Shown in pieces: positions 1,640 through 23,539 of a DNA stretch of 32,008 nucleotides. Source of the DNA: Planctomycetaceae bacterium (GTDB taxonomy: Bacteria; Planctomycetota; Planctomycetia; Planctomycetales; Planctomycetaceae); NCBI GenBank assembly GCA_028284885.1, contig JANQQW010000304.1:1-32008 (forward strand). Reading direction: 5' to 3'. The notes beneath the pieces were generated by a model that did no database searches, was not told where the DNA came from, and was given only the letters and a program-made list of their open reading frames with translations. Position 1 is the stretch's first letter. Every line of letters begins with the position of its first letter. A program made the translations under genes and the position numbers.

Positions 1640-2746
1640 TCAGGCGACGTGCCGACGTTCGAGCGGGCGACGGATCGAGGGGGTGCGGGCGACGAGTCGT
1701 TCGAAGGCGGCCCAAACTCGTTCGGCCGTCAGTTCGTCGAAGCAGGCCTGGTGGGCGTTGCCGCGGTGCGGGCAACGCTTGTTGTAGCTCGCCGCGCACG
1801 GCAGGTGGGTGCTGACGAGTTCGTGCTCCCCACCCGGCGGTCCGGACCGGACGGCCGAGGTGCAGGTGAAGACGCCGACGACGGGCGTGCCGACGCCGGC
1901 TGCGAGGTGCATCGGGCCGGAGTCGTTGGTGAGCATCACGTCGGCCTCGGCCAACAGGGCCGTCAGCTGCACCAGGGACGTGCCTCCCGTCAGGTCGAGC
2001 ACGCGGCCCTCGGGGTGGAGCCGTTCGATCGTGCGGGCGAGGTCGCGACTCGTCTCGCGTTCGTCTGGGCCGCCGACGAGGACGACGGAGAAGTCGTGCC
2101 CGCGGGCCGCCTTGGTGGCCACCGTGGCGAACCGCTCGACCGGCCACCGCTTCGTCGCCCAGCGGGCCCCGGCGTGCACGGCGAGGTACGGCGGGGGAAG
2201 CGGTCGAAGTCGCTCGGTCACCCAGCGGGAGTCGTCCTCGGAGAAGGCAACGGTCGTCGGCCGCCGGCCCCCCTCCACGCCGAACGCCTCGGCCACCCGC
2301 CAGTAGCGCTCGTGAGCCGGGACGATCTTCCCCGTGCCCGGGAGCGTCGCGTGACAGGCCAGGTGCGCACACTCGCGTGAGGTCTCGAGTCCGAGTCGCA
2401 GCGGAGCACGCGTCGCCCACGTCATCACGGCGGACCGCAGCAGCCCCTGCAGGTCGAGCACGAGGTCGAAGCGTCGTCGTCGCAGCTCCCGCAGGAACTG
2501 CCAGTTCGCCGCCCATCCCGCCTTGCGGTCGAACGGGATCGCCTCGTCCAGGCAGGGGTGGCCGGCGACGAGATCGACGAGTCCCGCGTTCACCACCCAC
2601 GAGAGCCGGGCTCCGGGGAACCGCTCGCGCAGGGCCGGCAGGAGCGGCAACGTCTGCACCACGTCGCCGAAGGCGCTCGGCTTGACGAGACAGACGTTCG
2701 ACGCGTCGAGCGTCTGCAGTCGGGAGAAGTCGAAGGAGCGTCGCAC
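1640..2746 (-). CDS. Glycosyltransferase family 9 (heptosyltransferase-like)
   Basis: The protein has the GT9/ADP-heptose transferase pattern. An N-terminal Rossmann-type segment NVCLVKPSAFGDVVQTLPLL carries the conserved GD used for acceptor binding. A middle segment reads HAGARWATKRWP, and the C-terminal nucleotide-sugar site is MLTNDSGPMHLAAGVGTPVV with the family D-S-G-P-x-H-x-A. Such enzymes transfer heptose or related sugars onto lipid A core or other envelope glycans at the inner face of the cytoplasmic membrane. The exact sugar cannot be read from sequence. The start is uncertain: I use GTG at 2746, which puts the conserved block about 16 residues in; a TTG at 2809 with GGAG upstream is the alternative. 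Any longer reading runs into the tRNA gene and is excluded. A strong terminator separates it from the tRNA, so it needs its own promoter. Confidence 0.82.
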   Translation of the reverse strand: MRRSFDFSRLQTLDASNVCLVKPSAFGDVVQTLPLLPALRERFPGARLSWVVNAGLVDLVAGHPCLDEAIPFDRKAGWAANWQFLRELRRRRFDLVLDLQGLLRSAVMTWATRAPLRLGLETSRECAHLACHATLPGTGKIVPAHERYWRVAEAFGVEGGRRPTTVAFSEDDSRWVTERLRPLPPPYLAVHAGARWATKRWPVERFATVATKAARGHDFSVVLVGGPDERETSRDLARTIERLHPEGRVLDLTGGTSLVQLTALLAEADVMLTNDSGPMHLAAGVGTPVVGVFTCTSAVRSGPPGGEHELVSTHLPCAASYNKRCPHRGNAHQACFDELTAERVWAAFERLVARTPSIRRPLERRHVA

Positions 2747-3757: not shown

Positions 3758-3936
3758 GGTTCACACCCGCGTGGCGACCGGCCCGGTTCCGTGGCGGCAG
3801 AACGAGCGCGCCGGTGGCGGCACGCGGGTGACGTTGGGGACTATCGTCACGATCGACACCGCCCATCATGCTTCCTCCGTCTGCCGTAAAGGTTCCACAT
3901 CCGCGGTTCGGTGGCGCGCGAGGGAGCGTGGTCCGC

Positions 3937-3964
3937 TTGGATGCCCGCGTCAGCCTGCTAGCAT
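3937..3964 (+). promoter_or_regulatory. Candidate promoter for hpnCD
   Basis: TTGGAT and TAGCAT are spaced by 16 bases and lie about 40 bases upstream of the TTG start chosen for hpnC. The match is moderate (four of six in each hexamer). If it is real, translation cannot begin at the in-frame ATG at 3868, which supports the shorter hpnC reading. Confidence 0.35.
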
Positions 3965-4005
3965 CCGCGAGGGAGTCCGCTGGGGTCGTCGGCCGGGAGC
4001 ACGAG

Positions 4006-4986
4006 TTGGGGGCGTTCGCAGACGAGTTGGCGAAGTGGGGACCGGACGCGCCGGCGAGCGAGCCGCTCTCGGTCGCCGAGGCGGAGGCCTACTGCGCGGA
4101 CCTCGCGAGGTCGCACTACGAGAACTTCCCGGTCGTCTCCGTGTTGCTGCCCCGGCGTTGGCGAGGCCACTTTCGCAACGTGTACGCCTACTGCCGTTGG
4201 GCGGACGACCTCGCCGACGAGTCCGGGGACGCCGAGACGGCGCTCGAACGGCTCGCGTGGTGGCGGTCGCTGCTCGAGGAGTGCTACGCCTCCGAACGGC
4301 CGTCGACGAGCCACCCGGTCTTCACGGCACTGCACGGGACGATTCGCGCCCGGGGGATCCCGAAGCAGCCGTTCGCGGACCTGCTCTCGGCCTTCGAACA
4401 GGACCAACGTGTGACGACGTACGAGAGCTTCTCGCAACTGCACGATTACTGCCGTCGCAGCGCGAATCCCGTGGGGCGACTCGTCCTCCACGTCGTGGAC
4501 GCGGCACGTGACGAGTTCCTCGAGTGGTCGGACGCGGTCTGCACGGGGCTGCAACTGGCGAACTTCTGGCAGGACGTGGCCCGCGACCACGCCATCGGGC
4601 GGGTCTACCTGCCGGCCGAGGACCGCCGTCGCTTCGGCTACGACGACACGGCACTGCACGGGCAAGTCGAGAACGACCCGTTCCGCGAGTTGATGCGGTT
4701 CGAGGTGGACCGGGCCCGCTCGTTCCTGCTGAGGGGGCTGCCCCTCGTGGACGCGGTCGGCGGACCGGTCGCCCCGGTGGTCGACCTGTTCGCGCGGGGC
4801 GGGTTGCGGATTCTGGAGCGAATCGAGGCGATCGACTACGGTGTGTGGAGTCGGCGTCCGGTGGTGAGTCGCTGGGACGTCGCCCGTCTCGTCGTCGGAG
4901 CGACGGGGCGGTCCACGTGGCGTCGCCTTCGTGGGCGGAGAGTTCCGCCGAACACCCGCGACGTACCGACCAAGGCCGGGCGATGA
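4006..4986 (+). CDS. hpnC: Squalene synthase HpnC (trans-isoprenyl diphosphate synthase fold)
   Basis: This 326-residue protein belongs to the squalene/phytoene synthase family. The first Asp-rich site is CRWADDLADES around residues 64-74 and the second is NFWQDVARDHAIGRVYLP around 186-203. Together they would bind the Mg-diphosphate groups of farnesyl diphosphate. The N-terminal HYENFPVVSVLLP block is typical of HpnC. In the HpnCDE route HpnC converts presqualene diphosphate to hydroxysqualene. I start it at TTG 4006 because GGGAG lies six bases upstream and the length then fits the family; an ATG at 3868 would add 46 Arg-rich residues. Its TGA overlaps the ATG of the next gene (ATGA), so the pair is translationally coupled. 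A CrtB/CrtM-type role is the alternative, but the tandem arrangement argues for HpnC/HpnD. Confidence 0.85.
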   Translation: MGAFADELAKWGPDAPASEPLSVAEAEAYCADLARSHYENFPVVSVLLPRRWRGHFRNVYAYCRWADDLADESGDAETALERLAWWRSLLEECYASERPSTSHPVFTALHGTIRARGIPKQPFADLLSAFEQDQRVTTYESFSQLHDYCRRSANPVGRLVLHVVDAARDEFLEWSDAVCTGLQLANFWQDVARDHAIGRVYLPAEDRRRFGYDDTALHGQVENDPFRELMRFEVDRARSFLLRGLPLVDAVGGPVAPVVDLFARGGLRILERIEAIDYGVWSRRPVVSRWDVARLVVGATGRSTWRRLRGRRVPPNTRDVPTKAGR

Positions 4987-5912
4987 GTCCAGACGGCGAA
5001 ACCTGGACGGCGGACGCGACCCTCGACGGCGTCGGTTCGGACCTCGATCGCTCGTTCGCGTGGTGTCGCGAGTTGACGCGGCGAACCGCCGGGAACTTCT
5101 ACTACGCGTTCCGGGTCCTCCCGCGAGACCGCTTCCGGGACACGTGTGCCCTGTACGCGTTCATGCGGATCACGGACGACGTCGGCGACGACCCGACGCG
5201 TGCCGTCGCCGAGCGGCGCGAGGGGCTGCGGAACTGGCGAGCAGCTCTCGCGGCGGCACTGGACGAGGACCGCATGGAGCACCCCTGTCACGCGGCACTC
5301 GTCGACGTCGTTCGCCGACACGGCGTGCCACGCCACTGCCTCGACGACGTGGTCACCGGAGTCGAGTCCGACCTCGACCACGAGGGGTTCGAGACGTTCG
5401 AGCAACTCGAACGGTACTGCTACCACGTCGCGGGGGTCGTCGGGGTCTGCTGCGTGCACGTGTGGGGAATGCGAAACGAACGCGCGGCCGAGGCGGCGGT
5501 CGAACTCGGCACGGCGTTCCAGCTCACGAACATCCTCCGCGACCTCGCCGAGGACGCCCGCAACGGCCGGGTCTACCTGCCACGCGAGGACTTCGAGCGG
5601 TTCGACTGCGACCCGGCCGGGCTCGCGGCCGGCGTTCGTGACGACGGCTTCCGGTCGTTGATGCGGTTCGAGGTCGGTCGCGCTCGGGAGTACTACGAAC
5701 GCGGCAGCCGCGTGTTCGACGACGTCGAGCCCGAGGCCCGCCCCATCCTCTCCGCGATGATCCGCATCTACCGCGGGCTGCTCGACGAGATCGAGCGGAG
5801 GGACTTCGACGTGCTGACCGAACGGGTCGGCCTGTCCCGAACGAGGAAGCTCTGGATCTCGGTCGACACGATCGTCCGCGGCTGGCTCCGTCGCCCGGCC
5901 CCGACCAGCTGA
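4983..5912 (+). CDS. hpnD: Presqualene diphosphate synthase HpnD
   Basis: This encodes 309 residues, homologous to its upstream neighbour. It contains RTAGNFYYAFRVLPRDR near the N-terminus, the first Asp-rich motif MRITDDVGDD (residues 61-70) and the second TNILRDLAEDARNGRVYLP (residues 181-199). HpnD condenses two farnesyl diphosphates to presqualene diphosphate, the substrate of HpnC. The squalene product feeds hopanoids or, in planctomycetes, C30 carotenoids. The start ATG at 4983 overlaps the hpnC stop by four bases. The third enzyme of the route, the flavoprotein HpnE, does not follow here: a strong hairpin and a convergent gene end the operon. A phytoene-synthase-like activity cannot be ruled out from sequence alone. 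Confidence 0.87.
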   Translation: MSPDGETWTADATLDGVGSDLDRSFAWCRELTRRTAGNFYYAFRVLPRDRFRDTCALYAFMRITDDVGDDPTRAVAERREGLRNWRAALAAALDEDRMEHPCHAALVDVVRRHGVPRHCLDDVVTGVESDLDHEGFETFEQLERYCYHVAGVVGVCCVHVWGMRNERAAEAAVELGTAFQLTNILRDLAEDARNGRVYLPREDFERFDCDPAGLAAGVRDDGFRSLMRFEVGRAREYYERGSRVFDDVEPEARPILSAMIRIYRGLLDEIERRDFDVLTERVGLSRTRKLWISVDTIVRGWLRRPAPTS

Positions 5913-6013: not shown

Positions 6014-7759
6014 TCACTCGAACGGGTTGCCCTCCTCCTCGAACGGGTTCTCGTTCTCCTCGCCGTACTCGAACGGGTTGTCGTCCGCAGAGGGCGTCGG
6101 GAGTTGGATGGTCGGGCCGCTCGGCTCGGCCTCGATCACCGCGTCCTCGACGACCTCGTCCTTCGGTTCCTCGCGAACGGTCGGCTCGGTGGAGGGAACC
6201 TCGTTGGAGGCCGGGCGGGCACTGCCGCCGAAGGGGTCGCGGTTCAGCGAGGTGACGAACCGGGTGAGCGTCTCACGGGTGGCGAAGAGGTGCAGCCGGT
6301 CCTTGTACCAGACCGCGTGGTCGAGGCTTCCCTCGACGCGTCGCCCCTCGACGGTGAGCAGGATCACGTCGTGCCCGCTCGCCACCGGAGCGTACTTCTG
6401 CGGGTCCGACTCGAACTTCTGCATCGCGTCCCGAGACGAGAGGTGGTAGGTCCGGGCCTTGTGGACCACCGCGAACTCGGCCTGTGCGTCGACCAGCTGA
6501 CGGTCGTCCCGGAGGGCGACCGGGCAGAAGCCCTTGAGGCCCGTCAGGTCGGCACGTTCCTGGATGCGGCGGACACGCGGATCGACGTCGTCGGACGGGG
6601 CGGGCGGCGCCGTCTCGGCCGGCGTGCTGGCCACTCCACGGGGACGGATCACCGGCGTCTCGTCTTCCGTCGGGGCCGGAGCCGCCGGAGTCTCCTCGGC
6701 GATGCGGGCCGGCTCCGGAGCCTCGACCTCGAACGGGTTCTCCTCGGGCATCGGGGCGGGCTCGGTCACCGGCTCCTCGACCGTCTCGAACGGCGACTCC
6801 TCACCGGCGTCCGCCTCGCTCTCCGAGAGTTCGGGGAACGGGTTGGCGAGCGCGTCGTCCACCGGGCGTTCCTCGGCAACCGTCTCCTCGGGGAGTGGCG
6901 GCATCGGCAGCGGCTCGCGGTCGTCGTCGGTCGTCGGTTCGGGAAGCTCGAACTCGTTCCCGGACTCCGTCTCTCCGGCCTCGGCGACGTCCGTCGGGGC
7001 CGGGGCCACGATCGGTGCCTCGTCCTGGGTCGCAGGCGGCTCGGTCGGACCGGCCACCGCGTCCTCGACGTCGGACTCGACCGGGCTCGTCTCCTCGACG
7101 ACCGGCTCCGGCTTCGGCTTGCGGCCGAAGATGCGGCTCAGGAACGAACGCTTCTCACGCTTCGGCTTCTCCACCGCCACCGGTTGCGGCAGGCGGTTCG
7201 GTTCGATGTCGCCGGAGACCTTCGCCTCGGGAACGCTCCCCTCCACGGCGTCACCCGTGGGGGCGACGACCGCGTCCTCGACCGGCTCCGTCTCCGGGGC
7301 CCCCGGGGGCTCGATCATCGGCTCTTCCGAGCGGTAGCCGAACTTGCGGCGACGGTTCTGCCAGTCGCGTCGCATGCTCGAACGGCCGGCGTTCCGGCGA
7401 GGCCGCGCCTCGGCGACCTGGACGGGCTCCGGGGCGACGACGAACGGCCGCGGTTCCGCGACCGGCGCGGCGACCTCGGCCGTGGGCGCGGTCTCGACCG
7501 ACGGGGCGGACTCGACGACCGACGGCGCGGGGGCGACCGTGTTGCTGGCACGGTCCACCTCGGCGGTGGCGCGGTTGAGGTCCTCGTTGTAGGCGGCGAG
7601 CAGGATCCGGCGTTCGTGCCGGAGTACCTCGAGCCGCTGTTCCTTCAGGCGGGCCGTCCAGCCGGCCGTGGACTCCTGAGCGTCCGTCGGAGACGCCAGG
7701 AACATTCCACAGGCCGCCGCGAGCAACAGCCGCCCCGACTTCGGGGTCGTCGACATCAT
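6014..7759 (-). CDS. Exported protein with tandem YHS-like region and NPF repeats
   Basis: This encodes 581 residues. I start it at the ATG at 7759 (the first of MM) because GGAGGAG lies nine bases upstream; it then opens with a signal peptide, LLLAAACGMFLASPTDAQE. Residues about 30-75 are helical. A very long segment of roughly 330 residues is acidic, Pro/Ala/Glu-rich and probably disordered, broken by a basic patch KPKREKRSFLSRIFGRKPK. Near the C-terminus is a YHS-like region. GFCPVALRDDRQLV begins it, ARTYHLSSRDAMQKFESDP and YAPVASGHDV follow, and a second half with DRLHLFATRETLTRF mirrors the first. Planctomycetes have a family with such tandem YHS-like units; metal binding is often suggested but unproven. 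Five NPF motifs occur, three in the last 25 residues. The site of action is probably periplasmic. Confidence 0.75.
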   Translation of the reverse strand: MMSTTPKSGRLLLAAACGMFLASPTDAQESTAGWTARLKEQRLEVLRHERRILLAAYNEDLNRATAEVDRASNTVAPAPSVVESAPSVETAPTAEVAAPVAEPRPFVVAPEPVQVAEARPRRNAGRSSMRRDWQNRRRKFGYRSEEPMIEPPGAPETEPVEDAVVAPTGDAVEGSVPEAKVSGDIEPNRLPQPVAVEKPKREKRSFLSRIFGRKPKPEPVVEETSPVESDVEDAVAGPTEPPATQDEAPIVAPAPTDVAEAGETESGNEFELPEPTTDDDREPLPMPPLPEETVAEERPVDDALANPFPELSESEADAGEESPFETVEEPVTEPAPMPEENPFEVEAPEPARIAEETPAAPAPTEDETPVIRPRGVASTPAETAPPAPSDDVDPRVRRIQERADLTGLKGFCPVALRDDRQLVDAQAEFAVVHKARTYHLSSRDAMQKFESDPQKYAPVASGHDVILLTVEGRRVEGSLDHAVWYKDRLHLFATRETLTRFVTSLNRDPFGGSARPASNEVPSTEPTVREEPKDEVVEDAVIEAEPSGPTIQLPTPSADDNPFEYGEENENPFEEEGNPFE

Positions 7760-7857
7760 GTCGTGCGTCTCCTCCATGACTGCTGATGGGCCGATCGGAG
7801 CACCGCCCCGCTCTGCGGGGACCTCGTCTCCTCGGTGCAGGCCGATCACGCCGTACG

Positions 7858-16565: not shown

Positions 16566-16943
16566 TCACGCGTCCGCGTCGAAACGGCGCACCGCGTCGG
16601 CAACGCTCTCCGCGACGTCGAAGTACTCCAGCAACTTCGCCGTCGCGAGGACGTCCCGGACGGTCTCGCTGAGTCGGCAGAGCACGAGGCGACCCTCGCC
16701 ACGGCCCAGCTTGCGGTGCAGTCCGATGATCTTGCCGATCACCGAACTCGTGGCGTACTCGACCGCCTCGAGGTCGAGGACGATCTGGCTCTTCTCGTAC
16801 TGGTCCACGAGGGCGAACATCTCCAACCCGAGCTGGTCGATGTTCTCCTCGTCGTTCAGGTGCGGTCGCGTGAGCCGCGCGACGACCACGTCGCCGTGCT
16901 CGGTGACCTGCAGGAACGACGGGTTGAAGTTCTCGAGGCTCAC
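16566..16943 (-). CDS. Single STAS-domain protein (anti-sigma-antagonist-like)
   Basis: This encodes 125 residues. The fold pattern of STAS/SpoIIAA-like proteins is visible: beta segment GDVVVARLTRPHLNDEENID, then helix LGLEMFALVDQYEKS, then IVLDLEAVEYATSSVIGKII, which carries the S-S at the site that is phosphorylated by a partner-switch kinase in related proteins, then RLVLCRLSETVRDVL. Such proteins bind a serine kinase/anti-sigma factor. No kinase gene is adjacent, so its partner is unknown. The GTG start at 16943 has GGAG six bases upstream and overlaps the mtaB stop (GTGA). Its own stop overlaps a possible tmk start, so it sits in a tightly coupled three-gene unit. Confidence 0.83.
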   Translation of the reverse strand: MSLENFNPSFLQVTEHGDVVVARLTRPHLNDEENIDQLGLEMFALVDQYEKSQIVLDLEAVEYATSSVIGKIIGLHRKLGRGEGRLVLCRLSETVRDVLATAKLLEYFDVAESVADAVRRFDADA

Positions 16944-18298
16944 GACACGCTCCGGGAACGTTCGACGAGGGGACGGGAGGGAGTCGCGGCCAGGTGTTCG
17001 ACACGGGCCGTCGTTCGGTCGGACAGAGGCTCGGCCGTCACGCCACGGTCGCCGACACCCGTGACGCGGATCCGGACGAGCTCTCCCGGGTTGCCTGCGG
17101 TCGACGGCAACTCGACCGGGACGTAGCGTTCGTCCGTTCCGCGGGACCAGCCTTCGCGGGTTGCCGAGGGACGTTCGACCAGGACCTCGACCTCGCGACC
17201 GACGACGGTCTGCCACTGCTCGCGGGCGAGTTCGGCGTCGACCGCGATCAGCCGCTCGACGCGTTCCTTCCGCACCTTCGGATCGACCTGGTTCGACATG
17301 TCGGCGGCAGGCGTTCCGCTGCGGGGGCTGAACGGGAAGACGTGCGTCTTCAGGAAGCGAGCTCGTCGGCAGGCCGCGACGGTCTCGTCGAACTCGTCCT
17401 CCGTCTCGCCGGGGAAGCCGACGATGACGTCGGTCGTGAACGTGGGCTGGTCGAGTCGTTCGCGCATCCGCTCCATCTTCTCGAGGAACCGTTCGACGCG
17501 GTACCGGCGCCGCATGCGGGCGAGCACGCGGTCCGACCCGCTCTGGAGCGACGGGTGGAACTGCGGGCACAGGCGTTCGCAGTCGGCCGCGGCCGAGATG
17601 AAGTCCTCGTCGACCTCGGCGGCCTCGATGCTGGAGAGACGCATGCGCCAGTGACCCGGAATCCGGTCGAGCCGCTGGAACAGGTGCCACAACCGGAACG
17701 GCGGCAGACCGGACTTCCCGCGGGTCCGCTCCACGCCGTAGTGCCCGACGTGGATGCCGCTGAGGACGATCTCGGAGTGCCCGGAGCCGACGAGCCGGCG
17801 GACCTCCTCCTCGATCGACTCCGGCGTGCGGCTGTGGAGCCCCGGCCGGACGTACGGGATGATGCAGTAGCTGCAGCGGAGAATGCAGCCGTCCTGGACC
17901 TTCACGAATGCTCGCTGCCGGCCGTCGAAGCGGCTGATGCCCGCGGGCATGTCGACGAGGCCGAACCGCTGCAGGACGTCGGGGAGTTCTCGCTTGTCGC
18001 GGACGACCTCGACCACGCCGGGGAGTTCGGCGACCGCCCGGGGATCCCGTGTCGCGTAGCAGCCCATCACGATCGTCCGGGCTGCGGGGTTCTCGCGTGC
18101 CAGGCGACGGACGACCTGCCGCGACTTCGAGTCGCCGGTGTTGGTGACCGTGCACGTGTTGACGACGTTGAGGTCCGCTGGCTCGCCGTCCGCCGCCTCG
18201 CGGTAGCCGGACGAGAGGAGAGCCTCCCTGACCAGTTGCGTCTCGTACTGGTTCACCTTGCAACCCAAGGTGATCAGACGGCAGGTACGGTCGTTCAT
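16940..18298 (-). CDS. mtaB: tRNA t6A37 methylthiotransferase MtaB (radical SAM)
   Basis: This encodes 452 residues. MtaB adds a methylthio group to t6A at position 37 of certain tRNAs, using two [4Fe-4S] clusters. The N-terminal UPF0004 cysteines are Cys13 (LGCKVNQYETQ), Cys49 (NTCTVTN) and Cys80 (GCYATR). The radical SAM triad CILRCSYC gives Cys138, Cys142 and Cys145. LGCKVNQ rather than a MiaB-type GCQMN favours MtaB. VIVGFPGETEDEFDET is the conserved late radical-SAM segment, and a C-terminal TRAM-like region (RYVPVELPS, GELVRIRVTGV) should bind tRNA. The ATG at 18298 is preferred although its Shine-Dalgarno sequence is weak. Its stop overlaps the STAS gene start. Confidence 0.92.
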   Translation of the reverse strand: MNDRTCRLITLGCKVNQYETQLVREALLSSGYREAADGEPADLNVVNTCTVTNTGDSKSRQVVRRLARENPAARTIVMGCYATRDPRAVAELPGVVEVVRDKRELPDVLQRFGLVDMPAGISRFDGRQRAFVKVQDGCILRCSYCIIPYVRPGLHSRTPESIEEEVRRLVGSGHSEIVLSGIHVGHYGVERTRGKSGLPPFRLWHLFQRLDRIPGHWRMRLSSIEAAEVDEDFISAAADCERLCPQFHPSLQSGSDRVLARMRRRYRVERFLEKMERMRERLDQPTFTTDVIVGFPGETEDEFDETVAACRRARFLKTHVFPFSPRSGTPAADMSNQVDPKVRKERVERLIAVDAELAREQWQTVVGREVEVLVERPSATREGWSRGTDERYVPVELPSTAGNPGELVRIRVTGVGDRGVTAEPLSDRTTARVEHLAATPSRPLVERSRSVS

Positions 18299-18378
18299 CG
18301 AGAGTCGTCGCAGACGGAGGCGACAGGGCCAAGCCTTGAGACTACACGTTTCCACGGAACTCGACCAGTCGCCGGCAG

Positions 18379-19725
18379 TCAGTCGCGGTCCGGGCGTCGG
18401 CGTCCGCGGCGTCGTGAACGGGATCGCGACCGGCCGCCGCCGTTCCCGCGTCCGTCGCTCATAGACGGGGAGTTCTTGACGAGGACGCCGATGGTGTCCG
18501 CCCACGTCGGGATGTTCCGGTACGACTGCGGCACGACTTCGTCCTCCTCGGCGACGTCGTCCGTTTCCTCCTCGTCCGACTCGTCCTCCGCGTCGTCGTC
18601 GTCCGAGGCTTCGATCCTCGACGAGGAACGCCGTCGCCGACGTCGCCGCCGCCTGCGGCGAGGCCGTTCCTCCTCCTCTTCGTCCTCGCCGTCCGACGAC
18701 TCGGTCTCGGCGACCTCCTCCTCTTCGTCGTCGTCGACGGCGGCCAAGCCGGACGAGAACGGATCGTCGTCCTCTGTGGAGTCGTCGATCTCCGGGACGT
18801 CGTCCGCTGCCACGGTGGACGACGAACGACGACGCCTGCGTCGTCGACGGCGTCGACGTGGACGCTCGCGTTCCTGTTCGTCTCCCTCCGAGTCCTCCTC
18901 GACGTTCGCTGTCGGCGGCTCGTCGGCTTCGGCAGCGGGTTCGTCGTCGTCGGAGAGGCCGTCCGAGAACGGGTCGTCCTCGGGTTCCTCTCGTTGGGCG
19001 CGGCTACGACCGCGGCGTGAACGGCCCGAGCGAGAACGGCGACGGCGGGACGTCCGGGCCGGCTGCTCCTCGGCCTCCTCCTCGTCCCCGTCCCCGTCTT
19101 CTTCGTCTTCGTCGTCAGACCGGTTGCGTGTCGCCGCTGGCCTCTTCAAGTCGCGGTCGGCCCCGCTCCAGTCCCAGTCGTCCAACTGGGCCCAGAAGTC
19201 GTCGGGCGGGGCGGGGCCTTCGTCCTCGACGGCTTCTTCGGCCGGTTCCGGAGCGGCCGTCGCGGCGGCGTCCACGGTTTGCGACTCGACCTCGACCTCG
19301 TCGACGTCAACGTCATCGGCCGCGACCGGTTCGTCCGCTTTCGCCGGCTCGTCGAGCAGCGCGTCGGCGAACCCGTCCTCGGCCTTCGGCTTCCGCGAGG
19401 ACTTCAGCTTTCGACGCTTGGGGGCCGGTTTCGACGCTGCCGGCTCGGCCGGCTTCGCGACGGAGGCGGGCTCGGGCTCCGGAGGCAGGTCGTCCAGCAA
19501 CCCGAAACCGAATCCGTCGTCGACGGCGTCCTCGGTCGTGTCCTCGACCTCGGGCACGGCGGAGTCGGTCGCCTCGGGCTCGTCCTCACCGAGGTCGAGT
19601 TCGGGGACGACGTCGGCTGGAAGGTCGATCTCCGAGGCGTCGAAGTCGATTCCGAAGAGGTTGGAGGCGGCCTGTTCGATCGACTTGTCGTCGTCGGGCC
19701 GCGAGCCGGGCGTGTTCGAGTTCAT
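18379..19725 (-). CDS. Low-complexity acidic/poly-Arg repeat protein, probably RNA-binding
   Basis: This encodes 448 residues with almost no ordinary folded region. The first 220 residues are acidic with short ordered-looking patches (ASNLFGIDFDASEIDLP, DDFWAQLDDWDWSG). Then comes an Arg/Ser patch (ARTSRRRRSRSGRSRRGRSR), and two modules, each an acidic segment starting EDDPFS or DDDPFS and ending in a run of 11 Arg followed by SSS, 66 codons apart. After these, a short conserved-looking block (SYRNIPTWADTIGVLVKN) precedes a Gly/Arg/Ser tail with RGNGGGRSRSRSRRRGRRR. Such alternation suggests a disordered RNA- or DNA-binding protein, but I do not recognise a named family. An in-frame ATG 12 codons upstream (19761) is possible; neither start has a clear ribosome site. 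The gene lies between the thioredoxin-like gene and mtaB. Confidence 0.7.
   Translation of the reverse strand: MNSNTPGSRPDDDKSIEQAASNLFGIDFDASEIDLPADVVPELDLGEDEPEATDSAVPEVEDTTEDAVDDGFGFGLLDDLPPEPEPASVAKPAEPAASKPAPKRRKLKSSRKPKAEDGFADALLDEPAKADEPVAADDVDVDEVEVESQTVDAAATAAPEPAEEAVEDEGPAPPDDFWAQLDDWDWSGADRDLKRPAATRNRSDDEDEEDGDGDEEEAEEQPARTSRRRRSRSGRSRRGRSRAQREEPEDDPFSDGLSDDDEPAAEADEPPTANVEEDSEGDEQERERPRRRRRRRRRRRSSSTVAADDVPEIDDSTEDDDPFSSGLAAVDDDEEEEVAETESSDGEDEEEEERPRRRRRRRRRRRSSSRIEASDDDDAEDESDEEETDDVAEEDEVVPQSYRNIPTWADTIGVLVKNSPSMSDGRGNGGGRSRSRSRRRGRRRPDRD
18628..18660 (-). repeat. Second run of 11 arginine codons
   Basis: Eleven consecutive Arg codons (CGC, CGG, CGA, CGT and AGG mixed) end in SSS. 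The run is exactly 198 bases from the first, and its codon order differs, so it is not a simple DNA slippage product. Confidence 0.85.
18826..18858 (-). repeat. First run of 11 arginine codons
   Basis: Eleven consecutive Arg codons (mostly CGT and CGA, with CGC and one AGG) follow ERERP and precede SSS. It is the N-terminal member of the 66-codon repeat. Confidence 0.85.
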
Positions 19726-19782
19726 CCCGAGGACGTTATCGGGCGAATTCCGCCGATTCAAGCGTTGCCCGCGGTGTTCCCG

Positions 19783-20256
19783 TCACCGAGAGGTCCGGTG
19801 ACGAATCTGCTGGACGCGGCCCTGCAGGTTGCGGGCGGCGACGAGCGACTCGTGGTACTTCTCCGGCTCGACGTAGCCGACGAGCCGGCCGAGCAGGTCC
19901 GCTTCCGGGCTGAGGACGAGCGTGCAGGGCAGCGACTTCACCTCCAGCACGCGAGCGAGCTCCCGGTCCTCGTCGTAGTCGAGGTGGACGGGGACGAACG
20001 ACTCCGAGACCAGCGTCTCGACGTCGGGGTGGGCGAGCGTCTGGCTGTCGAGTTTCCCGCAGTAGCGGCACCACTCGGCCCCGATCACGACGAGGATCGG
20101 CCGGTTCGACGCGACCGCCTCCGCGTGGGCGGCCTTCAGTTCGGTCTTCCACTCGATGCCGGTCTTGTCGTCGCCCTTCGCTCCGGTGAGGAACAGGGCG
20201 CCGACGCTGACGGCGGCCAACATGGCGGTGGTGCAGACGGTCCAACGACGGCTCAT
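19783..20256 (-). CDS. Exported or membrane-anchored thioredoxin-like protein
   Basis: This encodes 157 residues from ATG 20256, which has AAGGGA six bases upstream. A hydrophobic N-terminus (TAMLAAVSVGALFLTG) acts as signal or anchor. The thioredoxin fold follows: RPILVVIGAEWCRYCGKLDS with the redox pair Cys63/Cys66 (CRYC), then FVPVHLDYDEDRELARVLEV and the cis-proline region LPCTLVLSPEADLLGRLVGY. A C-x-x-C of this type resembles the DUF255/thioredoxin_7 group rather than CGPC thioredoxin. It probably reduces or isomerises disulphides, or delivers reducing power to cytochrome maturation, in the periplasm. The target is unknown. It sits between clpS and the poly-Arg protein on the same strand. 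Confidence 0.82.
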   Translation of the reverse strand: MSRRWTVCTTAMLAAVSVGALFLTGAKGDDKTGIEWKTELKAAHAEAVASNRPILVVIGAEWCRYCGKLDSQTLAHPDVETLVSESFVPVHLDYDEDRELARVLEVKSLPCTLVLSPEADLLGRLVGYVEPEKYHESLVAARNLQGRVQQIRHRTSR

Positions 20257-20399
20257 CGCGCGATTCCCTTCGCAACGGAGACGTTTTCCGTTCCGTTTCC
20301 TCGGCACGGACCGGCCGACGATTCCACGCGTTTCCACCCGCACGGCCGTCACGACTGGAACCGGGTCCGGTTGTGCGGGTTGCGCGGGCGGGCCGCCGG

Positions 20400-20854: not shown

Positions 20855-23539
20855 TCAGTCGTCCGACTTCGCCTTCTTCTTGGCGGCCGACTTCGCCTTC
20901 GGCGACTTCTTCTTGGAGCTCTTCTTCTTGGCCTTCTTCTTCGGGCCGGCCTTCTTCTTCTTGGCCTTCACGCCCTTCTTGGCGGCCTTCTTGGTGATCA
21001 GGTCGAGGGCTCGTTCGAGGGTGATTCCGTCGATGCCGAGGTCCTTCGGGACGGTGGCGTTGACCTTGTGCCACTTCACGTAGGGCCCGTACTTGCCCTC
21101 GTAGACGCCGATCTTCTCGCCGTCCTCAGGGTGCTCGCCGAGGACCTTGATCGGCTCCGGGGCGGACCGCCGCTTGGCGGTCTTCAGCATCTCGACCGCG
21201 TCCGCCAGCGTGACGGACAGCACGTCGACGGTCCGGCCGTCCGGCGTCTGCCAGGTGTGGGTCTTGTCGAAGGACTTGTAGGTCTTGCCGTGCTTGACGT
21301 ACGGGCCGTACATGCCGATGCCGGCGTTGACGACCTTGTCGTCGACCGGGTGGTGGCCGAGTCGCTTGGGGAGCTCGAACAGCTTCATCGCCATGTCGAG
21401 GTCGAGTGTCTCGACGTCGACGTTCTTGGGGATGCTGCACCGCTTCGGCTTCGGTTCGCCCCCTTCGGGGGTCTCGCCGAGCTGCAGGTACGGACCGAAC
21501 GGGCCGATCATCTTGAAGACGGGCAGCCCCTCCTCGGGGTGCATGCCGATCGACTCGGGGCCCTTCTCCTTCAGGGCGATCAGCTTCTCGGCCTCGTCGT
21601 TGTCGAGGTCGGCCGGGGCGACGTCGTCGGGAATCGAGGCAGTCACCTTCTCGCCGTTCTTCTGCTTCTCGAAGTACGGACCGTACCGGCCCACGCGGAC
21701 GTCGGCGTCGAAGCCGTCGAGCTTCAACGTGCAGGCGACGCGGGGGTCGATCTCCTCCTCGTGCGTCTTCACCTGCGAGTCGATTCCCTCGTCGCCGAGG
21801 TAGAACTCCTTGAGGTACGGCAGCCGGTCGGCGTCGCCGGAGGCGATCTCGTCGAGCGTCCGCTCCATCTTCGCGGTGAACTCGTACTCGACGAGGTGGT
21901 GGAAGTGCCGGTCGAGCATCTGGGTGACGGCCATGCCGGTGAAGGTCGGGACGAGGGCCTTCCCCTGCTTCCGCACGTAGCCGCGGTCCTGGATGGTCCC
22001 CATGATGCTGCTGTAGGTACTCGGCCGGCCGATCCCCTTCGCCTCGAGTTCCTCGACGAGCGACGCCTCCGTGAAGCGGGCGGGCGGCTTCGTCTCGTGC
22101 GGGATCGCCACGATCGCCTTGCACTCGACTTTGTCGTTCTCGGCGAGCGGCGGGAGTTCGACCTCGTTCTCGCGGAGCTTCGCCTCCGGGTCCGGCGAGC
22201 CCTCGAAGTGGGCCCGGCGGAAGCCGGAGAAGACGGTCTTCGTGCCGGAGGACCGGAACTCGGCGTCGCCCGCCGTGATGCCGACCGAGACCGTCTCACG
22301 GATCGACGGGGCCATCTGCGTGGCGATCGTCCGCTTCCAGATGAGGTCGTACAGCTGGGCCTCGCGGCCGGAGAGCCCGAGCTCCTTCGCCGTCTTCATG
22401 GCCGTGCCGGCCGGGCGGATCGCCTCGTGGGCCTCCTGGGCGTTCTCGGACTTCGAGGCGTAGGTTCGCTTGGTGTCGTGCAGGTAGTCGCTGCCGTAGC
22501 GGTCCTCGACCGAACTCCGGGCCGCGTCGACCGCCTCGCCGGAGAGGTTGACGCTGTCGGTCCGCATGTAGGTGATGTGCCCGTCCTCGTAGAGGCGTTG
22601 GGCGACGGCCATCGTCTCGCGGGTGGAGAGGCCGATCTTGTTGCCGGCGTCCTTCAGCAGCGAGTTCGTCGTGAACGGCGGGCCGGGGTTCGAGGACGAC
22701 TGCTTGGTGGTGACCTCGCTGACGACCCAGTCCCCCTTCTCGATCCGCTCGCGGAGTTCGGTGGCGGCCTTCTCGTCGAGTAGGACGACGTCGGCCCCTT
22801 CGTGCAGTTTGCCGGTCTTCTCGTCGAAGTCCTTCGTGCTGGCGACCCGCTTGCCGCCGACGTTACGGAGCTCTGCCTCGAAGGTGGCGTCGCCCCCCTT
22901 CGCGAGGTCGGCCTTCAGGTCCCAGTAGGTTCCCGAGCGGAAGGCGAGCCGTTCGAGTTCCCGCTCGACGACGAGCTTCACCGCCGGCGACTGCACGCGG
23001 CCGGCCGAGAGCTTCGGCTTGATCTTCTTCCAGAGCAGCGGGCTGAGCGTGTAGCCGTAGAGTCGATCGACGACGCGGCGCGTCTCCTGGGCCTGGACGA
23101 GGTCGAGGTCGATGTCGCGGGTCTTCTCGACCGCCTCGAGGATGGCCCCCTTGGTGATCTCCGAGAAGACCATCCGTTTGACGGGGACCTTGGGCTTCAG
23201 CTCCTGGACGAGGTGCCAGCCGATGCTCTCCCCTTCGCGGTCCTCGTCCGTCGCGATGAGGAGTTCGTCGACGTTCTTGAGGTCGGATTTGAGCTCCTTG
23301 ACGATCTTCTTCTTCTCCGGGGCGACGACGTAGAGCGGCTCGAAGTCCTTCTCGACGTTCACGCCCAGGCGGGACCACTCCTCCTTCTTGACGGCCGCGG
23401 GGATCTCCTTGGCACTGGAGGGGAGGTCGCGGATGTGGCCCACGCTGGCCTTGACGATGTAGTCGGAGCCGAGGAACCCGCCGATCTTGCGGGCCTTCGC
23501 CGGCGACTCGACGATGACCAGTGCCTTCTTCTTCGCCAC
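20855..23539 (-). CDS. topA: DNA topoisomerase I TopA
   Basis: This encodes 894 residues from GTG 23539. TopA relaxes negative supercoils by single-strand passage through a covalent 5'-phosphotyrosine. The N-terminal TOPRIM domain opens with ALVIVESPAKARKIGGFLG and carries TDEDREGESIGWHL (residues 97-110), whose acidic residues bind Mg. SAGRVQSPAVKLVVERE follows, and the active Tyr324 is in GHITYMRTDSVNLS. GIGRPSTYSSIMGTIQDRGYV is the conserved late core. No zinc ribbon is visible (few cysteines). Instead four glycine-rich repeats of the GxYGPY/GPFGPY type occupy the C-terminal third. The last 45 residues are Lys/Ala-rich, like a histone H1 tail, and probably add DNA binding. It is divergent from the PpiD-like gene and first of a seven-gene minus run. 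Confidence 0.96.
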   Translation of the reverse strand: MAKKKALVIVESPAKARKIGGFLGSDYIVKASVGHIRDLPSSAKEIPAAVKKEEWSRLGVNVEKDFEPLYVVAPEKKKIVKELKSDLKNVDELLIATDEDREGESIGWHLVQELKPKVPVKRMVFSEITKGAILEAVEKTRDIDLDLVQAQETRRVVDRLYGYTLSPLLWKKIKPKLSAGRVQSPAVKLVVERELERLAFRSGTYWDLKADLAKGGDATFEAELRNVGGKRVASTKDFDEKTGKLHEGADVVLLDEKAATELRERIEKGDWVVSEVTTKQSSSNPGPPFTTNSLLKDAGNKIGLSTRETMAVAQRLYEDGHITYMRTDSVNLSGEAVDAARSSVEDRYGSDYLHDTKRTYASKSENAQEAHEAIRPAGTAMKTAKELGLSGREAQLYDLIWKRTIATQMAPSIRETVSVGITAGDAEFRSSGTKTVFSGFRRAHFEGSPDPEAKLRENEVELPPLAENDKVECKAIVAIPHETKPPARFTEASLVEELEAKGIGRPSTYSSIMGTIQDRGYVRKQGKALVPTFTGMAVTQMLDRHFHHLVEYEFTAKMERTLDEIASGDADRLPYLKEFYLGDEGIDSQVKTHEEEIDPRVACTLKLDGFDADVRVGRYGPYFEKQKNGEKVTASIPDDVAPADLDNDEAEKLIALKEKGPESIGMHPEEGLPVFKMIGPFGPYLQLGETPEGGEPKPKRCSIPKNVDVETLDLDMAMKLFELPKRLGHHPVDDKVVNAGIGMYGPYVKHGKTYKSFDKTHTWQTPDGRTVDVLSVTLADAVEMLKTAKRRSAPEPIKVLGEHPEDGEKIGVYEGKYGPYVKWHKVNATVPKDLGIDGITLERALDLITKKAAKKGVKAKKKKAGPKKKAKKKSSKKKSPKAKSAAKKKAKSDD

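Follow-up and report, generated by a model that had tools for sequence, protein, structure and literature searches.

The window, that is, the whole 32,008-nucleotide stretch of a Planctomycetaceae bacterium contig analysed here, carries on its minus strand a gene for a 448 aa protein built of alternating acidic and Arg blocks. Its frame opens with an ATG at 19725 and has a codon-position GC of 0.76/0.51/0.82, the pattern expected of coding sequence where a genome is as GC-rich as this one. The reading frame, on whose conservation the original prediction depended, is kept in relatives. The gene and its main features are as follows (all on the minus strand):

18379..19725, coding sequence of the disordered protein, in which acidic and Arg blocks alternate (ORF translation, charge analysis, model, orthologues)
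19642..19689, N-terminal conserved motif DKSIEQAASNLFGIDF, family consensus DxWExLAxDLFGID (alignment; predicted helix aa 13-24)
19486..19521, DDxFGxGL motif copy 1, DDGFGFGLLDDL (motif scan)
19348..19380, degenerate DDxFGxGL-like copy, EDGFADALLDE (sequence)
19168..19206, central conserved motif PDDFWAQLDDWDW (alignment; predicted helical turn aa 180-183)
19000..19056, Arg/Ser patch RTSRRRRSRSGRSRRGRSR (aa 224-242)
18943..18981, DDxFGxGL motif copy EDDPFSDGLSDDD, opening repeat unit 1 (motif scan)
18826..18858, Arg run 1, R11 (aa 290-300)
18727..18771, DDxFGxGL motif copy DDDPFSSGLAAVDDD, opening repeat unit 2 (motif scan)
18628..18660, Arg run 2, R11 (aa 356-366)
18472..18525, C-terminal conserved motif SYRNIPTWADTIGVLVKN (alignment; predicted helix aa 408-416; P406 and W408 invariant)
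18382..18456, basic RS/RG-rich C-terminal tail (sequence; aa 424-448)
16940..18298, neighbouring gene for MtaB, a tRNA methylthiotransferase (adjoins the orthologue in several relatives)
19783..20352, neighbouring gene for a thioredoxin-like protein (adjoins the orthologue in several relatives)

The gene order Trx - gene - mtaB - STAS - tmk recurs in part among relatives, and clpS and topA lie upstream of the stretch that runs from the thioredoxin-like gene to mtaB. A plus-strand ORF at 16994-19801 lies opposite the gene and mtaB and was rejected as a shadow ORF. The gene is unlinked to rne: RNase E is encoded separately, on this genome's contig C217. Elsewhere in the window, an acidic disordered protein (6014-7849, minus strand) carries another repeated acidic aromatic short motif, of the NPFE/SPFE type (ANPFPE, ESPFETVEE, EENPFEVE, DDNPFEYGEENENPFEEEGNPFE); TopA ends in a Lys/Ala-rich, histone-H1-like tail (KKAAKKGVKAKKKKAGPKKKAKKKSSKKK; 20855-21000, minus strand); and two adjoining squalene/phytoene-synthase-like genes (3868-5912, plus strand) are, from their translations, probably of the hpnC/hpnD type.

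In the charge-hydropathy plot the protein lies far into the disordered region. AlphaFold, in a single-sequence model that is weak evidence, returned a mean pLDDT of 43 with helical elements only at aa 13-24, 180-183 and 408-416, which are the same three motifs that the alignment independently marked as conserved. The disorder proposed in the original prediction is borne out by both measures. Twelve charge blocks alternate along the chain and are segregated far above chance (z = 17.1), with acidic blocks dominating to give a net charge of -70. The Arg/Ser patch is real, while the tail previously described as RGG-like is rich in RS/RG and not canonical RGG. Altogether, the nucleic-acid-binding character suggested earlier is supported, with RNA as the probable ligand.

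The two R11 runs lie 66 codons apart, as had been noted, each after an acidic segment (EDDPFS at aa 249, continuing as EDDPFSDGL, and DDDPFS at aa 319, continuing as DDDPFSSGL) and each followed by SSS. Their codon orders do differ: run 1 uses CGT five times, CGA three times, CGC twice and AGG once, and run 2 uses CGG four times, CGC, CGA and CGT twice each and AGG once, leaving 23 of 33 nucleotides and 2 of 11 codons in common (random synonymous R11 pairs at local codon usage are expected to share 24.7 ± 1.7 nucleotides). Across 44 Arg runs of the family, 105 neighbouring codons were identical against 101.3 ± 6.6 by chance; since adjacent-codon identity is no commoner than chance, these runs bear no slippage signature. 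Recent slippage was consequently rejected as their origin, the codons differing as random synonymous choices would, and the idea that the runs are held at the protein level stands. The conserved 11-Arg run as such did not survive comparison: in relatives the runs measure 5-10 residues and are often interrupted by Gly or Lys, a run of at least 5 is absent in 5 of 34 members (most of which retain a basic block at that place), and one genus-level group has Lys/Arg blocks in place of pure Arg. It is the block pattern with its flanking short motifs, not the length of 11 Arg, that is conserved.

That no family was recognised at the outset is confirmed for Pfam and NCBIfam, neither of which matches the window protein. 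None of 24 family members has a Pfam match, RNase E/G (PF10150) included; weak NCBIfam matches were obtained to the mycobacterial RNase E model RnaseEMycob in 3 of the 24 (best E 5e-4) and to SCO2400_fam in one family member. Within the taxonomic family to which the window belongs, a profile search of 150 genomes gave matches in 94, the weakest of which are perhaps not orthologues. The family, which has no name, was found in Planctomycetia. Its shared parts are the N-terminal DxWExLAxDLFGID (a WxxLAxxL(F)G helix), the central DxFWDxLxDWDW (DxFWxxLxDWDW), DDxFGxGL in repeated copies, as a rule between one and four basic runs, and the C-terminal Yxx(I/V)P(T/S)WxEAIxxL (an (I/V)P(S/T)WxxAI helix) leading into a basic tail; among 24 diverse members, P406 and W408 do not vary. 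A further match in the window's own genome (contig C15, E 1e-6) lacks this architecture.

The form of the protein varies by lineage. Taxonomy was taken from named GTDB genomes, some of whose MAG labels may be wrong, and the unnamed families f2-f7 were equated with Isosphaeraceae, Gemmataceae and others by sequence likeness to named loci. An assignment of f1 to Pirellulaceae was rejected, its genomes matching Schlesneria and Planctomyces MAGs contig by contig and thus belonging to Planctomycetales. The stand-alone gene is present in Schlesneria, Planctomyces-type, Aeoliella, Thermoguttaceae and Gemmataceae genomes and in a Blastopirellula-labelled MAG; the profile search detected no copy in Rhodopirellula, Rubripirellula, Fuerstiella or Isosphaeraceae genomes. 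Gemmataceae-type genomes encode shorter forms of about 180-220 aa (DDWxELAREL, R8-10, NVPSWDxIV) without DDxFGxGL; Thermoguttaceae- and Lacipirellulaceae-type genomes encode forms with two WxxLAxxLG motifs, and DDxFGxGL is absent from the Lacipirellulaceae/Thermogutta-type forms.

Disordered sequence in the RNase E of these bacteria differs by lineage. RNase E/G in the window's family genomes is short, with an S1 insert of 30-44 aa where measured and without a disordered C-terminal domain. S1 inserts span 30-87 aa in Planctomycetales and Pirellulales, the lineages of the stand-alone protein, and 31-72 aa in Schlesneria, Planctomyces, Fuerstiella, Rhodopirellula, Rubripirellula, Thermogutta and Aeoliella records. 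Among ten measured genomes of f2, f3 and f4, RNase E reaches 950-1473 aa because an insert of 448-941 aa interrupts the S1 domain, the Pfam S1 match stopping at profile position 38-40; a C-terminal tail was rejected as the source of these long Planctomycetia frames. In named MAGs of Gemmatales and Isosphaeraceae (Isosphaerales) the inserts are 220-781 aa (long inserts of 220-941 aa overall were seen at loci L137-L146, L157-L161, L174, L186, L189 and L198), and in many Phycisphaerae RNase E instead bears C-terminal tails of 160-465 aa, which in many cases include Arg runs. Every genome in which the long stand-alone form was found has a short RNase E insert. This complementarity is imperfect, reflecting few evolutionary events and leaving gaps in the pattern. 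Simple gene fission from RNase E was rejected because Gemmataceae combine a short stand-alone form with a long insert and because Rhodopirellula, Rubripirellula and Fuerstiella have a short insert and no detectable stand-alone copy.

Run against phycisphaeral genomes, the stand-alone family profile matched poly-Arg RNase E C-terminal tails (shown for L070, L073, L252 and L253), a similarity that is partly compositional; its other matches in the genome-wide search likewise fell in RNA enzymes: a DEAD-box helicase, a poly(A) polymerase and Rho. The tail at L252 holds an IF2_N domain between its poly-Arg runs (PF04760, E 1.3e-10; 1945-2088, plus strand), and that at L253 likewise, below the cut-off. 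Planctomycete nucleoids are condensed, and the strong basic blocks could be taken for those of a nucleoid-associated, histone-tail-like DNA-binding protein; we consider this very unlikely, given that related regions occur in RNA enzymes and not in DNA proteins and that acidic blocks dominate the charge of the protein.

The link to RNase E lies in the DDxFGxGL motif. The f2-f4 S1 inserts combine acidic stretches with this motif (for instance SFGLGIFEE and GFGEGLFDDLD at L138, DFGMGLFEA at L146 and GFATGLLEG at L139), in a context near-identical to that of the stand-alone protein (DDDGFGAGLLDAF in the latter, DDDGGFGEGLFDDLD in RNase E). The pattern F[GAS]xG[LIV] occurs 23 times in the inserts, in 10 of 10 of them, where shuffling predicts 0.27 copies; the 29 stand-alone proteins have 45 copies where it predicts 0.43, and the enrichment is more than 80-fold. 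Among 1,105 fetched proteins (non-redundant ORFs of fetched loci, not whole proteomes), the stand-alone family accounted for 28 copies of the strict motif and RNase E for 13; the 950 others had none. L197 alone looked like an exception, but it is itself a phycisphaeral RNase E: about 360 aa of disordered, basic sequence extend its N terminus and carry one DDxFGxGL (L197:2480-5095). The motif was defined post hoc, after both protein sets had been seen; the census controls for composition: across 25,350 aa of acidic, low-hydrophobicity disordered segments from 136 other proteins, the strict motif was absent and the loose one occurred twice (0.08 per 1000 aa of such sequence, compared with 2.95 in the stand-alone family and 1.46 in RNase E). 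Thus, outside the stand-alone family, DDxFGxGL is confined to RNase E within the sample. Arg runs of at least 5 are present in all four f2 inserts and in two of the three f4 inserts and absent from all three f3 inserts; what ties the stand-alone protein to RNase E throughout is therefore the motif and not the Arg run.

These data leave little room for compositional drift, in which GC-rich acidic/Arg low-complexity sequence would have no specific function. Run length (5-11) and repeat number do vary widely, and some members have no run, as drift would produce; an invariant Pro and Trp, motifs conserved across orders, the lack of a slippage signature and the excess of the motif over shuffles make it hardly credible. 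A general RNA chaperone or ribosome-associated disordered protein, condensing RNA independently of RNase E, has more to recommend it: Arg blocks, acidic blocks and a basic tail would be enough for non-specific RNA binding, and the neighbour mtaB encodes a tRNA-modifying enzyme. Such a protein would nevertheless explain neither why, within the sample, only RNase E has DDxFGxGL in common with this family nor why helical motifs are conserved at both termini, and we regard it as unlikely. A motif in common with RNase E is also what a trans-acting regulator or inhibitor of that enzyme might carry, its acidic stretches mimicking RNA and competing for the active site; the cyanobacterial RebA would be its analogue in role. 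Acidic S1-insert residues of Caulobacter RNase E have indeed been proposed as RNA mimics (PMC4245959). Repeated Arg blocks, however, favour RNA recruitment over mimicry, making inhibition distinctly unlikely.

We therefore favour, at somewhat better than even confidence, a stand-alone, disordered and polyvalent scaffold that acts in trans in the planctomycete RNA-decay machinery. The same putative docking motif occurs in the RNase E of related bacteria, so that the protein is probably a separate RNA-decay scaffold, filling in trans the role that RNase E's own disordered part would have in cis elsewhere; a trans-acting degradosome scaffold is the most economical reading. The Arg blocks would bind RNA, and the protein probably condenses, which the Arg and acidic blocks could jointly bring about. 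The repeated DDxFGxGL would dock the partner that the same motif presumably docks in the Gemmatales/Isosphaerales S1 insert, and the N- and C-terminal helical motifs may be further docking sites, possibly for RNase E itself. More tentatively, at a little under an even chance, DDxFGxGL and the charge blocks could form a single docking-and-condensation module, placed either in the RNase E S1 insert or on a stand-alone protein; dividing scaffold from enzyme would then allow condensate formation to be controlled independently of the nuclease. If a trans-acting scaffold is correct, these lineages offer a natural separation of scaffold and nuclease for testing the role of the disordered region in RNA decay and condensation, and DDxFGxGL provides a specific peptide for finding the shared partner.

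A 2011 survey reported planctomycete RNase E of 509-588 aa and predicted no degradosome (PMC3071783), and the literature searched yielded no later paper on a planctomycete degradosome. Our data indicate long disordered RNase E regions in whole planctomycete orders, and the same motif on a separate protein in others. In known systems, alternating charge patches and Arg-rich blocks of RNase E drive BR-body formation, the Arg-rich blocks binding RNA and forming RNA-dependent condensates with the alternating acidic blocks (PMC10412687, PMC12691583), and short scaffold motifs dock PNPase, helicases and other enzymes (PMC11964227). The window protein shares with the C-terminal scaffolds of Caulobacter, Sinorhizobium, E. 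coli and Pseudomonas RNase E a long disordered region of alternating acidic and Arg blocks and short helical docking motifs (putative here), and it holds a motif common to the disordered region of RNase E in related lineages. It differs in being a separate protein, encoded away from rne and without a nuclease domain (no PF10150 catalytic, S1 or thioredoxin-like domain), and the likeness to the proteobacterial C-terminal domains shown here is one of features rather than of sequence homology.

In cyanobacteria, the RNase E nonapeptide RRRRRRSSA binds PNPase (as cited in PMC11964227 and PMC12489471). That both R11 runs end in SSS is a resemblance only: relatives have Gly, Lys or other residues at that place, and no R6SSA nonapeptide is conserved. 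The phycisphaeral RNase E tails have the same repeated acidic-DRPRRRRRRRRRG units, where the family profile matches, but they form one chain with the catalytic domain and have neither the N-terminal nor the C-terminal motif; some contain IF2_N. S1 inserts of alpha-proteobacteria and plants (50-150 aa) are likewise charged and disordered, though far shorter than the 220-941 aa of planctomycetes; in the Caulobacter enzyme, this insert is part of the region through which the catalytic half contacts the helicase RhlB (PMC4245959). The Gemmatales/Isosphaerales S1 insert carries DDxFGxGL and often Arg runs, as does the window protein, which is free-standing.
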